Below, one piece after another: positions 24,972 to 58,758 of a DNA stretch of 64,000 bases. The stretch spans positions 372,001 through 436,000 of the forward strand of contig NZ_FOKK01000001.1 in assembly GCF_900112005.1 (NCBI RefSeq), given 5' to 3'. Numbering within the stretch: position 1 is the first letter of the stretch; each line of letters starts with the position of its first letter. The notes under the pieces are model-generated. The model ran no database searches, was not told the origin of the DNA, and saw only the letters and a list, made by a program, of their open reading frames with translations. The translations under genes were made by a program, and so were the position numbers. Source of the stretch: Algoriphagus aquimarinus. Lineage in GTDB: Bacteria; Bacteroidota; Bacteroidia; Cytophagales; Cyclobacteriaceae.

Positions 24972-26354
24972 CTATTTTTTAGCCTCGATCTTCACATGAT
25001 CGCCAGTCATCAAAATCCTGCGATAGCCATCTTTGGTGTCGTTGCTTACTTCCTTTCCTAACACTTTTACTTTGGAGTATTCTGCAGGAAGCTCAATGGA
25101 TAAACCCGCTTTCTTTTGGGTTTGGGTGATTTCTAGAGAGATTAGATCGGTGTTAGAACTGATGCTTATGTTTATTTTATTGTCATCAATCCACAGGTTC
25201 TCTATGGAAGCTTCTTTCCATTCTTTAGGCAAATTGGGGCGAATGTAGGTGACACGACTTTCGATATCAGCGTCAATGCCGAGTAAGTCCAGAAGTAGCG
25301 GTTGTACACTCTGATAATCTACTTGTATAAGGTCGTTTTGGCTATAGAATACTTCCTTATCGATTTTCTCAACATACTGCTTACTGAAATCTTTCAGCAT
25401 TTGATATTTCCAGCCTTCCTCACTTTCCAAGCCATTGACTATGTCTTTTCCCACCTGAAATAAACCATATTCATATTTGCTCCATTCGTATGCTTCTTGG
25501 ATTTCTTCTTCAGGAATAATGATTTTGGAAGTGTTTTGAAGGGAATCTATCAAAGCGAAATTCTCATCCCAATCCGAAAATAGCCCATCTCGGAGATCGG
25601 CGAAAGTCTCAATCGCAGTGAATTCACCCTGATCAGAACCTGCGATGAAAACAGGGATTACACGCTCTTCATTTGCAGCTAGCTCCACAGTAATTTCAAA
25701 TCCTGCACTAGTACCTAATTCGGATGTGTCGCGAGAACAATCAGAATCACGTGGGCTCATACTGAAATCGGTAGAGGTTCCCCAAACCGCAAACCAATCA
25801 TTTTTTTCGTCTTTAGCGGTGAAGATTCCCGTCACCTCATCAAAAATAACCTGATCTGCAGCATTGCTTCCAAAACTGCTGTCCATCAAAATGCTAGGTT
25901 TGAGATCTGTGTTGGCTTGAAACAGGAACTGGGTGATTTTTGGTGACTTATCCACATTCTTGATGGAATAAAGCAGCGTAATTCCAAGTTTGTCTTTACT
26001 GATAAATTGTAGCTGATTTATTTCTAGACCATCATTTTCTAGTTGAAAATGCTGCTTGCTAGCGAAAGGATATTTAGTAATGTCGACTGGATTATCTAGA
26101 CAGATCGATTCAGTCTCGGTCTTGACAGCGGCGGAAAACGCACTGAATAACTGGATGGTTTCCAATGTAAGTTCCTGTTGCTTTCCGCTGAGTAAAATGT
26201 TTTCATTTCCCAAGGAAAAGCTGGCGGCATCTTTCACTGATACCGAAGGCAATTTCTCCAAACTATCAAAAAGGATTGCTTCCTCGGATCGAGGTCCTTT
26301 GCAGGAAATAGAGATCAAAAGTACTACTGGAATTGCGAGAAAGGAATATTTCAT
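24972..26354 (-). CDS. Lipoprotein resembling a glycoside hydrolase without its catalytic core
   Basis: 460 residues from the ATG at 26354, chosen because MKYSFLAIPVVLLISISCKG is a lipoprotein signal and because it leaves a 23-bp gap to the upstream gene. Residues 25-270 look like a beta-sandwich; IPEEEIQEAYEWSKYEYG near 300 is the linker helix typical of amylo-glucosidase/trehalase-like (alpha/alpha)6 enzymes; the end (YIRPNLPKEWKEASIENLWI, then beta strands) looks like their C-terminal domain. The 300-400 residues of catalytic barrel expected between are absent. The family assignment is inference. Confidence 0.5.
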   Translation of the reverse strand: MKYSFLAIPVVLLISISCKGPRSEEAILFDSLEKLPSVSVKDAASFSLGNENILLSGKQQELTLETIQLFSAFSAAVKTETESICLDNPVDITKYPFASKQHFQLENDGLEINQLQFISKDKLGITLLYSIKNVDKSPKITQFLFQANTDLKPSILMDSSFGSNAADQVIFDEVTGIFTAKDEKNDWFAVWGTSTDFSMSPRDSDCSRDTSELGTSAGFEITVELAANEERVIPVFIAGSDQGEFTAIETFADLRDGLFSDWDENFALIDSLQNTSKIIIPEEEIQEAYEWSKYEYGLFQVGKDIVNGLESEEGWKYQMLKDFSKQYVEKIDKEVFYSQNDLIQVDYQSVQPLLLDLLGIDADIESRVTYIRPNLPKEWKEASIENLWIDDNKINISISSNTDLISLEITQTQKKAGLSIELPAEYSKVKVLGKEVSNDTKDGYRRILMTGDHVKIEAKK

Positions 26355-55843: not shown

Positions 55844-56539
55844 ATGAAGCTTATTAAGAGGTTATGGCGTTTGGTCTGGAAAACTGCGATGTGGTTTTTG
55901 ATTATTTCAGTTGGGTTGACTGTGGTCTATCGCTTCGTGCCTGTGCCGATTACTCCCTTGATGGTTATTCGTGTTTTTGAACAGGCATTTGATTCAGAGA
56001 AGGAAGTTAGACTTTACAAGGACTGGGTGCCTATGAGTGAGATTTCAAAGAATGCTCCTCAGGCAGTTTATGCTGCAGAAGACCAGAAATTCATGGCGCA
56101 CGATGGTTTTGATATTGAGGCCATGCAAAAAGCTTGGGAAAATAATAAAAAAGGTAAGCGGGTAAAAGGAGCAAGTACGATCACTCAGCAGACCGTTAAA
56201 AATGTCTTTTTATGGCCATCCAGAAGTTATGTCAGAAAAGGTTTTGAAGCGTATTTCACAGTTTTGGTAGAGTTAATATGGCCAAAAGAGCGCATAATGG
56301 AAGTTTATCTGAATGTGATAGAAATGGGTGATGGTATCTATGGGATCGAAGCAGCATCACAGGCTTACTTCAACAAGCCAGCCTCCAAACTCAACCGTAA
56401 CCAAGCTGCCGCAATTGCTGCTGTTTTGCCAAACCCAAGACGATGGTCTCCTGCCAAACCGACCTCCTATATTATCGGTCGTCAAGGTTGGATTCTAAGA
56501 CAGATGAATAACCTAGCCCCACTGGAAATGGGTATTTAG
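55844..56539 (+). CDS. mtgA: Monofunctional peptidoglycan glycosyltransferase MtgA
   Basis: 231 residues with one N-terminal membrane helix (about 12-32). The GT51 motifs are in order: AAEDQKFMAHDGFD with the catalytic Glu, KGASTITQQTVKN, WPKERIMEVYLNVIEMGDGIYGIEAAS with the second Glu region, and LPNPRRWSP. It polymerises lipid II into glycan strands on the outer face of the inner membrane. Nine bp separate it from the preceding methyltransferase. Confidence 0.95.
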   Translation: MKLIKRLWRLVWKTAMWFLIISVGLTVVYRFVPVPITPLMVIRVFEQAFDSEKEVRLYKDWVPMSEISKNAPQAVYAAEDQKFMAHDGFDIEAMQKAWENNKKGKRVKGASTITQQTVKNVFLWPSRSYVRKGFEAYFTVLVELIWPKERIMEVYLNVIEMGDGIYGIEAASQAYFNKPASKLNRNQAAAIAAVLPNPRRWSPAKPTSYIIGRQGWILRQMNNLAPLEMGI

Positions 56540-56979
56540 TGGTTGGGTTTGTCCTGTTAAATTTGCACTATTCGGTGGTAAAGTTGGGGAAAAATTAAAA
56601 ACACAGTGATTGGAGATGTTATGCTCAGGTTTTTCAAAGCGAAAAAAATAGTGTGCAAAATTTTCTATTCCAATTGGGCGATATCGGGCACTTTTCTATA
56701 CTACGTTTCAGGGGTAAAGTTGAAATGAACAAGACTTGAAAATCGTTGTTTGGAGCGTCCATTTGAGGTTTAAAAAATGCAAGTGTTTTTTATCCACATT
56801 TTCGATAATTTATCCACACTCCGTAATATTGACATTCTAACTATCATTAAATCAGATAATTACATGCTGTTCTCTAAAGGTAATTTTGTGGATAAAGAAG
56901 GCTAACTTCAAAAATGTGTTCAAAAACTGTATGAGAAAAAGTGGATAAATTTCTCTTCCAAATATTATTCTTAAATCGA
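56540..56979. other. 440-bp intergenic region with a DnaA-box cluster (candidate replication-initiator site)
   Basis: A spacer between two convergent genes. It holds TTATCCACA at 56790-56798 and 56810-56818 (20 bp apart, same direction), TGTGGATAA at 56887-56895 (the reverse complement) and AGTGGATAA at 56940-56948 (one mismatch). The nonamer is the classical DnaA box. The stretches between are AT-rich. Single perfect copies occur elsewhere, mostly inside genes encoding V-D-N or V-D-K, but no other cluster is in the window. It could be oriC, a DnaA-titrating site, or a local regulatory site; nothing here proves which. Confidence 0.55.
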
Positions 56980-58758
56980 TTAATCTTGCTTCTGTTTAAT
57001 AAGACGTTTTCGGTAGGCATTAAAGATTCTTGACTTAGAAACGAAGCCTAAATATTTGCCCTCTTCGATTACAGGTAGATTCCAAGCTCCAGATAGCTCA
57101 AATTTTTCCATAGCTTTTTGCATATTCTCAGTTGCTAATAGGATTTCTGGAGGACTGTGCATCAGTTCCTTTATAAGCATTACTTCCTGCTTTTCTTTAT
57201 CAAACATAATGTCTCGGATATCATCCAAGGTGACTATTCCTCGTAGAGCTTTATGCTCATCTACTACAGGGAAAATATTACGCTTGGATATTTTCACTAG
57301 ACTTATCAAATCTTTCAGTTTTGAATCGGGATGTATAGGAAGCAAATCTCGTTCGATTACATTGGTAATCGTGATGAGTTCCAATAGTTCTTGATCTTTT
57401 GATTCGGGTAAGTGTCTTCCTTTTTCCTTCAGTTGTATCATGTAGATACTGTCTTTCTGATAGGCTGTTTTGGTCACATACGAGATGGCGGATACAAACA
57501 TTAAAGGAATGAACAGCTCATACCCCCCAGTGATTTCTGCTATTAAGAATATAGCGGAGAGCGGCGCGTGCTGGGCACCTGCCATTACGCCGCACATGGC
57601 TACTAGAGTAAAATGAGCCAAAGGAAGAGGAATAGTGAAATTAAAAAGATTACTAGAATAGGCGAATAAGAATCCCAAAATTCCCCCTACATAAAGCGAA
57701 GGTGCGAATATTCCACCACTACCACCTGCCCCTAGAGTAACGGCGGCAGCTATAGGTTTCACTAGAATTATAAACGCCAAGAAAATAATGATCAAGTAAG
57801 GATTCTCAATCAGTGAGAAGAATGGACTTTTTTCGAGCAATTGACTGGAGTTTCCATCAATCAATGTATTAAGCGTATCATAGCCCTCTCCATAGATTGG
57901 GGGCAGGAAGAAAACCATAATACCCAATATAGCGCCACCATAAAGAATACGTAACGCTTGGCTATCGAGGCTCTCCATGAGTGATTCAGTTTTTCTTACA
58001 GCTTGGCTGAAGTAGAGAGAAACCAAACCACATGCAATCCCCAGAAGCAAATAATAAGGCATGTGAGAAGCTTGAAAGTTCTCCGTCAGTTTGAAATTGA
58101 AAACGGAGTCTTTCCCAATAAGAATCATGGAAGTCAGTGATCCTGTCACACTGGCTATCAGCAGAGGAATAAAGCTCGCTGTGCTGATTTCCATCATGAT
58201 TACCTCAATGGCGAAAATCACTCCACCGATAGGAGCTCCGAAAATGGATGATATCGCTGCTGCAGCACCGCAACCAATGAGTAGGGTCCGTTTCTTTGCA
58301 TTTAGATGAACCAGAGAGCCTACGTTGGAGCCGATGGCCGAGCCTGTTACTAGCATGGGAGCTTCCAAACCTACTGATCCACCAAAACCAACAGTAATTG
58401 CTGAAGTGAAAACACGGCTGTAGGTCTTTACACGTTTGATGATACTCTGTTTTTTGGATATTGTAAACAGAATATCAGGAACGCCATGCCCTCCTATGTC
58501 TTTAAAAAGGAATTTCCCTATAAGATAGGCAGCCGAAATACCGATAAGCGGATATAGGATATAGAGAAAATTGGCATACTCTTTATAAAAATCCTCTGTA
58601 AGAAAATGCTGGATAGCATGTACACCTTGTTTCAGAATTACCGCAGCAAGACCAGAAAAAACTCCTATTATCCCACTAAGAATAAGGATGAAGGTTTGGT
58701 TGCTCATATGTCTGAGCCTCCATATTAAGAGCCTGGTGATAATGTCTTGTTTAGGCAA
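56980..58758 (-). CDS. ClC-family chloride channel/antiporter with C-terminal CBS domains
   Basis: 592 residues. About ten membrane helices (20-430) carry GFGGSVGLEAPMLVTG (gating Glu; usually GREGP), GAPIGGVIFAIEV and LGAGGSGGIFAPSLYVGG, the Cl- coordinating loops. The last 140 residues (about 450-590) form a pair of CBS domains (IFPVVDEHKALRGIVTLDDI, NLPVIEEGKYLGFVSKSRIF) that may bind nucleotides and regulate gating. The protein sits in the inner membrane and may be an H+/Cl- exchanger. The stop lies next to the DnaA-box region. Confidence 0.93.
   Translation of the reverse strand: MPKQDIITRLLIWRLRHMSNQTFILILSGIIGVFSGLAAVILKQGVHAIQHFLTEDFYKEYANFLYILYPLIGISAAYLIGKFLFKDIGGHGVPDILFTISKKQSIIKRVKTYSRVFTSAITVGFGGSVGLEAPMLVTGSAIGSNVGSLVHLNAKKRTLLIGCGAAAAISSIFGAPIGGVIFAIEVIMMEISTASFIPLLIASVTGSLTSMILIGKDSVFNFKLTENFQASHMPYYLLLGIACGLVSLYFSQAVRKTESLMESLDSQALRILYGGAILGIMVFFLPPIYGEGYDTLNTLIDGNSSQLLEKSPFFSLIENPYLIIIFLAFIILVKPIAAAVTLGAGGSGGIFAPSLYVGGILGFLFAYSSNLFNFTIPLPLAHFTLVAMCGVMAGAQHAPLSAIFLIAEITGGYELFIPLMFVSAISYVTKTAYQKDSIYMIQLKEKGRHLPESKDQELLELITITNVIERDLLPIHPDSKLKDLISLVKISKRNIFPVVDEHKALRGIVTLDDIRDIMFDKEKQEVMLIKELMHSPPEILLATENMQKAMEKFELSGAWNLPVIEEGKYLGFVSKSRIFNAYRKRLIKQKQD

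Follow-up and report, generated by a model that had tools for sequence, protein, structure and literature searches.

A conserved cluster of DnaA boxes between mtgA and clc in Algoriphagus, probably not the replication origin and possibly a datA-like DnaA-control locus

What is a tight cluster of DnaA boxes doing between two genes that point toward each other: does it mark the origin of chromosome replication (oriC), or does it serve the control of DnaA from outside the origin? The question is raised by the spacer between mtgA and clc in a 64,000-nucleotide stretch of the Algoriphagus aquimarinus genome (the window; bases 372001-436000 of contig C21 in a 5.12-Mb draft of 39 contigs, G000). A sequence-only reading of the window had reported three perfect TTATCCACA boxes (+, +, -) and one single-mismatch copy in 159 bp of noncoding DNA and had offered oriC or a DnaA-binding or titrating locus as explanations; the coordinates are confirmed, and the four boxes together cover 159 bp, at C21:428790. 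Our answer, with a probability of roughly 0.55, is that these boxes form a noncoding locus dedicated to the control of DnaA, datA-like and close to the origin but distinct from it. The comparisons below establish the architecture, conservation and position of the element, whose parts are as follows (window positions).

56790..56798, plus strand: DnaA box 1, perfect TTATCCACA, the same in 35 aligned elements, although these rows were chosen by the exact pattern
56810..56818, plus strand: DnaA box 2, perfect TTATCCACA, starting 20 bp past the start of box 1
56838..56862, no strand: central symmetric 25-bp motif TAAnnnnYTGAnnnTCARnnnnTTA, from sequence and motif comparison
56850-56862: right half of the 25-bp motif, AATCAGATAATTA, an exact match to the IHF-type consensus WATCARNNNNTTR
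56887..56895, minus strand: DnaA box 3, perfect TTATCCACA, inverted, ending 106 bp from the start of box 1
56940..56948, minus strand: DnaA box 4, TTATCCACT, inverted, one mismatch, 44 bp beyond box 3
56770..56915, no strand: core conserved block, from per-base conservation of aligned elements

The cluster exceeds chance, as had been argued before: about 0.004 perfect 9-mers are expected per 440 bp in dinucleotide shuffles, and three were seen in 106 bp. The same word is, however, overrepresented well beyond the spacer, with 10 copies in the whole window (0.59 expected in dinucleotide shuffles) and 108 in the source genome (62 for the word read backwards), and its copies are concentrated about the predicted oriC in G000 and in two single-contig genomes, G009 and G033. 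The significance of the cluster therefore rests on conservation and spacing and not on the number of boxes.

Both are marked. The exact three-box spacing pattern, searched with a total span of 90-121 bp allowed, is present in 60 of the 61 genomes of the genus, once in each (row count), and in 108 of 390 genomes and 25 of 84 genera of the family, while the reversed pattern, used as a control, gave 0 matches in every row of the family genome search. After duplicate 720-bp elements had been merged (98 to 75 distinct), 55 belonged to the Algoriphagus set (loci L011-L150) and 20 to other genera. Of the 55 Algoriphagus-set elements, 51 have a span of 106 bp from box 1 to box 3 and the other 4 one of 105 bp, and the 20 others range over 102-107 bp; at the position of box 4, 43-45 bp past box 3, GTGGATAA is found in 52/55 and 8/20, respectively. 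Profile R1, which uses sequence only and was built from 35 elements picked by the exact pattern, so that the invariance of its boxes is by construction, matched 129 of the 146 family genomes that are at least 95% complete, in 64 of 71 genera, at E ≤ 0.001. For 121 of these 129 the match was at E ≤ 2.1e-7, and for the other eight E was 4.6e-6 to 5.8e-4. By the exact pattern the element is single-copy; the profile also gives a weaker additional match in many genomes, frequently the opposite strand at one and the same place; in one genome (G085) such a match is 3 kb from mnmG. Lower-scoring family members, L337 and L338, keep the central motif (3 and 1 mismatches) and have one degenerate outer box. 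That the boxes are conserved in much of the family, at almost constant spacing, supports the earlier suggestion of a putative DnaA-binding or titrating locus.

The element is not tied to its neighbours. Named mtgA loci were examined in 79 of 80 cases (L073 was dropped because no stop was found), over 800 bp or to the locus end if clc was absent and with rows of minus-strand whole-genome loci excluded from the count. A clc match follows mtgA in 19 of the 79 (with only 66 residues in L028), and all 19 of these have three perfect boxes at intervals of 20 and 77 bp, with a fourth, one-mismatch box another 52-53 bp on (42 bp in L011); the other 60 lack a perfect box over the 800 bp that adjoin mtgA or as far as the locus end. 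Among the 20 loci from other genera, clc adjoins the element in 12, and the left-hand neighbours vary in identity and direction. As the neighbours change between genera while the element stays, the element is no appendage of mtgA.

Searched across the phylum, the profile matched 36 of 247. Seven of the 36 belong to the family itself, with E up to 4.9e-9; the matches of the remaining 29 are weak (7.7e-7 to 9.0e-4), and 7 of these 29 were inspected. At L330 (G434) and L336 (G590), from other families of the class, DnaA boxes flank the same symmetric motif (2 and 1 mismatches), an arrangement which suggests that the element may be older than the family. L331, L333 and L334, from another family of the phylum, have boxes at 20 and 67 bp and no central motif, and L335 has two boxes 20 bp apart and no inverted box. 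L332 has 15 boxes within 451 bases and may be an origin.

Within the element, conservation is concentrated on the boxes and on the DNA between them. The 51 Algoriphagus-set elements with a 106-bp span show 1.3-1.7 bits over boxes 1 and 2 and just before them; toward mtgA, beyond -60, the value drops to roughly 0.1-0.5 bit per base, and the edge on the clc side is less clear, since the ungapped comparison reaches the clc coding sequence. Between box 2 and box 3 sits the 25-bp motif (columns 48-72), both halves of which are conserved among the elements, the left half being degenerate in the source genome. Its strict form, with at most 3 mismatches, is at the expected place in 62 of 75 elements, compared with a best match of 6 or 7 mismatches in 56/75 when the flanks are searched over an equal number of offsets; the sequences in which the motif was counted are also those from which it was derived, and these rows were not selected for it. 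The exact IHF-type sequence WATCARNNNNTTR, with R at position six, occurs mid-element in 25/55 Algoriphagus-set elements and 8/20 others, against 0.7 and 0.2 in shuffles, and it does so at a fixed place, 31 bases past box 2, in 25 of 25 and 7 of 8. With a relaxed pattern, weaker boxes are added in 10-bp phase in many elements, about 10 bp past box 1 in 9/20 elements of other genera and about 10 bp past box 2 in 22/55 of the Algoriphagus set. The consensus form WATCAAnnnnTTR is given for IHF in PMC10380432.

Where, then, is the origin? Skew was computed on stretches of five genomes (C21:180001-512000 in G000 and 403001-783000 in G033, with G009 sampled and G104 and G279 coarsely sampled). In G000 the cumulative GC-skew minimum is at C21:308598, 120 kb from the element, with only negative 10-kb bins between 200 and 310 kb and only positive ones between 310 and 360 kb. 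In G033 the skew turn is at 607.7 kb and the element at 455.2 kb, 152 kb apart; in G009 samples place the turn at ∼4.39-4.40 Mb and the element is at 4.286 Mb, about 110 kb apart. At or near the skew turn, and 2.6 kb from mnmG in all five genomes, there is a different cluster, of mostly imperfect boxes.

G000:C21:301258-301662 (L240): predicted oriC, 7 boxes with ≤1 mismatch, 127 kb from the element
G009:C1:4399875-4400279: predicted oriC, 9 boxes with ≤1 mismatch
G033:C1:618459-618759: predicted oriC, 5 boxes with ≤1 mismatch
G104:C1:1433084-1433482: predicted oriC, 9 boxes with ≤1 mismatch
G279:C1:4123624-4124174: predicted oriC, 9 boxes with ≤1 mismatch

In G104 and G279, which represent two further genera, this cluster is near the place where the coarse skew goes from negative to positive. 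The spacer that holds it is two genes from mnmG and is intergenic in G000, G009 and G033; it is flanked in G000 by an AMP-ligase gene and a Big_5-domain gene, in G033 by the same pair (best reciprocal match) and in G009 by open reading frames (ORFs) of like length. By the usual signs the mnmG-side cluster is the predicted oriC. The gene dnaA is on another contig (C17) in G000 and 0.77-1.04 Mb from mnmG in G033, G021 and G009, so it marks neither the mnmG-side cluster nor the element. Like the predicted oriC, the element is an intergenic DnaA-box cluster, but the predicted oriC has 5-9 mostly imperfect boxes at the skew turn, whereas the element has three perfect ones. Counted at ≤1 mismatch the element has 4 boxes, but it has more perfect boxes than the mnmG-side clusters of G000, G009 and G033. 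Neither the skew minimum nor the richest box cluster by origin-linked genes coincides with the element, and on skew, distance and the better candidate beside mnmG the proposal that it is oriC was rejected; the element is probably not oriC. The sequence-only reading had named two findings that would count against it, a distant skew minimum and boxes not conserved in relatives: the minimum is indeed distant, but the boxes are conserved.

The central motif also occurs near the origin in two genomes: a symmetric copy with one mismatch adjoins a DnaA box at G033:C1:618646, inside the oriC candidate (the only one of the five candidates with the motif at ≤2 mismatches), and a one-mismatch copy at G000:C21:308173 is 0.4 kb from the skew minimum.

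Although separate from the predicted origin, the element is near it. In 22 single-contig genomes of 13 genera it is 20-618 kb from mnmG, i.e., at 0.2-13.7% of the chromosome (median, 2.9%), compared with a median of 25% expected for random placement; these genomes are not a random sample, each being in one contig and having a known element, most sizes are rounded, kinship makes the rows dependent, and mnmG was checked as a marker of oriC in five genomes. The largest value (G180; 618 kb, 13.7%) comes from a weak match (E 4.6e-6), and the largest without it is 8.4%; in G279, of the same genus as G180, the exact pattern is 614 kb from mnmG. In G000 and five further drafts the element and mnmG are on one contig, 34-614 kb apart.

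These properties are best matched by datA, the locus of datA-dependent DnaA-ATP hydrolysis (DDAH) in Escherichia coli. That locus needs its boxes 2 and 3 as well as one IHF site, its spacing is important, and IHF bending is proposed to join DnaA groups (PMC4585315, PMC10380432, PMC10950094); boxes 2, 3 and 7 are termed essential in PMC10380432, and datA is always found close to oriC and is therefore copied early (PMC4585315). The spacer that holds datA in K-12 is also convergent and contains one perfect TTATCCACA and one exact IHF-type site. The element shares with datA a noncoding, convergent spacer, an IHF-type site between DnaA boxes, constrained spacing (102-107 bp in the 75 elements) and proximity to oriC (median, 2.9% in the 22 genomes). 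It is smaller, at about 106-160 bp, than the minimal datA of 187 bp (PMC10380432), and its IHF-type motif, known from sequence, is symmetric, whereas that of datA is one-sided.

By analogy, we infer that DnaA binds the element and that the element is active. DnaA would assemble on direct boxes 1 and 2 and on inverted box 3, and a protein of the HU/IHF family would bend the central DNA, bringing the two DnaA groups together. The resulting complex may then hydrolyse DnaA-bound ATP or keep DnaA from oriC, and active or free DnaA would be lowered soon after initiation. At ∼3% of the chromosome from oriC the element is expected to be copied early after initiation, and early copying would double the brake just as re-initiation must be blocked. 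A further-reaching version is possible but is put forward tentatively, as one that we would not favour over its negation: the element would be a datA-type DnaA-inactivating locus outside the Proteobacteria, either of independent origin or separated long ago, whose symmetric IHF-type site, bound by a homodimeric HU/IHF-family protein, takes the place of the one-sided site for heterodimeric IHF, and it would be a main off-switch for DnaA in this Bacteroidota family. Hda is expected to match PF00308, and in four genomes one PF00308 match per genome was found, with no Hda-like gene seen.

Several observations weigh against a datA-like control locus. Seventeen of the 146 family genomes have no profile match and 8 more have only a weak one (E 4.6e-6 to 5.8e-4). 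The exact IHF-type site is absent from 30/55 and 12/20 elements, of which 21 of 30 and 4 of 12 have a one-mismatch version at the same place. Counted elsewhere at up to two mismatches, with mononucleotide shuffles in 200-bp blocks as the expectation, the 25-bp motif is found 11 times against 10.8 in 332 kb of G000 and 15 times against 10.3 in 380 kb of G033, and in 781 kb of G009 samples there are 38 against 17.5 expected; a widespread regulator site was rejected as an explanation of the motif. In the G009 samples the copies outside the element reach 2-4 times the shuffle level, an excess which argues against the motif being special to the element. The sole HU/IHF-family gene found in the source genome (PF00216; C21:445890-446156, L244) is 17 kb from the element, and IHF is reportedly conserved in few phyla (PMC10380432). 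Neighbourhood, box order and spacing are not common to the element and E. coli datA, so that neither neighbourhood nor arrangement indicates common descent. Finally, hydrolysis, reactivation and plain titration would look alike in sequence.

The main rival is plain titration, which we consider unlikely although it deserves serious attention: high-affinity boxes would merely absorb DnaA, this cluster being one among many near oriC and its middle motif non-catalytic. Perfect boxes do crowd round the predicted oriC in G000, G009 and G033; a density of boxes near the origin has been reported for E. coli and Salmonella (PMC12371093), and deletion of six non-oriC clusters in Bacillus subtilis led to early initiation (PMC5295017). 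Those DnaA-box clusters resemble the element in lying outside the origin, but six were removed for a strong effect, whereas here a single element has a central motif and an almost fixed architecture, neither of which titration alone requires. In favour of titration, four coding-sequence boxes of G000 are matched by a perfect box somewhere within the orthologous gene of G033; against it, G000:C21:180001-512000 has 7 perfect boxes in intergenic DNA, and only the two of oriC and the three of the element have counterparts, also perfect, next to the orthologous genes of G033. The opposite activity, reactivation of DnaA by exchange of ADP for ATP at a DARS-like site, is quite improbable. DARS1 and DARS2 of E. 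coli have a three-DnaA-box core, and DARS2 uses IHF (PMC4585315); three perfect boxes are present in the element too. In E. coli, however, it is datA that is described as always near oriC, where this element lies, and the IHF site of datA is between boxes, as the IHF-type motif is here.

The chances of the remaining explanations are slim. A DnaA/HU complex near oriC could have some other role on the scale of the chromosome, e.g., in origin tethering or segregation, and this would suit an element that is origin-proximal and independent of neighbour genes, but the element's direction relative to the fork, deduced from the places of the element and mnmG, is mixed in genus g69, though uniform in five Algoriphagus genomes; we regard such a role as very unlikely. 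Slimmer still is the case for a DnaA-regulated promoter or a transcription roadblock for a neighbour gene, for which it may be said that the nearest left-hand ORF points away in 13/20 loci from other genera, nine of which share one gene pair. Because the neighbours converge on the element in Algoriphagus, neither gene starts there, and the promoter reading was rejected when a search of the spacer for promoters of the sigma-70-like type found none, against 1.9 expected. That the element is oriC after all, or a second origin, is the least probable: its DNA is AT-rich (33% GC) and the G033 oriC candidate holds the same central motif with one mismatch, but the skew turn is 110-152 kb off in three genomes and in five genomes the mnmG side offers 5-9 boxes at or near the turn.

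A datA-like control locus would be of interest in several respects. To our knowledge, once-per-cycle control of replication has been little studied in Bacteroidota. The titles and abstract openings of open-licence literature, among the matches listed, included no DnaA-control site in this phylum, and no such literature on Cyclobacteriaceae or Algoriphagus with DnaA was found. A 106-bp element found in 64/71 genera, and near mnmG in the 22 placed genomes, offers a direct target that is easy to delete. It could show whether datA-type control has evolved repeatedly and whether bending the DNA between DnaA boxes is a design of general use. The locus is also a warning for origin prediction, as the tightest cluster of perfect DnaA boxes here is probably not the origin.

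The surroundings of the element in the window are listed below; the convergence of both neighbours on the spacer had been recognized by the sequence-only reading.

55844..56539, plus strand: mtgA, monofunctional peptidoglycan transglycosylase (TIGR02070, above cut-off), pointing toward the element
56519-56542: terminator-like hairpin at the mtgA end of the spacer, the only one seen
56540..56979, no strand: spacer of 440 bp that holds the element, between the convergent genes
56980..58758, minus strand: clc, ClC-type chloride channel with a CBS domain, pointing toward the element

An RNA gene in the spacer was rejected, a search of 56540-56979 against Rfam giving nothing at E values as high as 1. 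The nearest relatives of the source mtgA are from Algoriphagus, with 81-86% identity for the ten best named loci and 97% to G028. Perfect DnaA boxes also occur elsewhere in the window, e.g., at 25948, 29024 and 32103, most of them within coding sequence, and G033:C1:551338-563064 holds 12 perfect boxes in ∼12 kb; orthologous genes of the window bear single ones. These coding-sequence boxes possibly form a titration zone.
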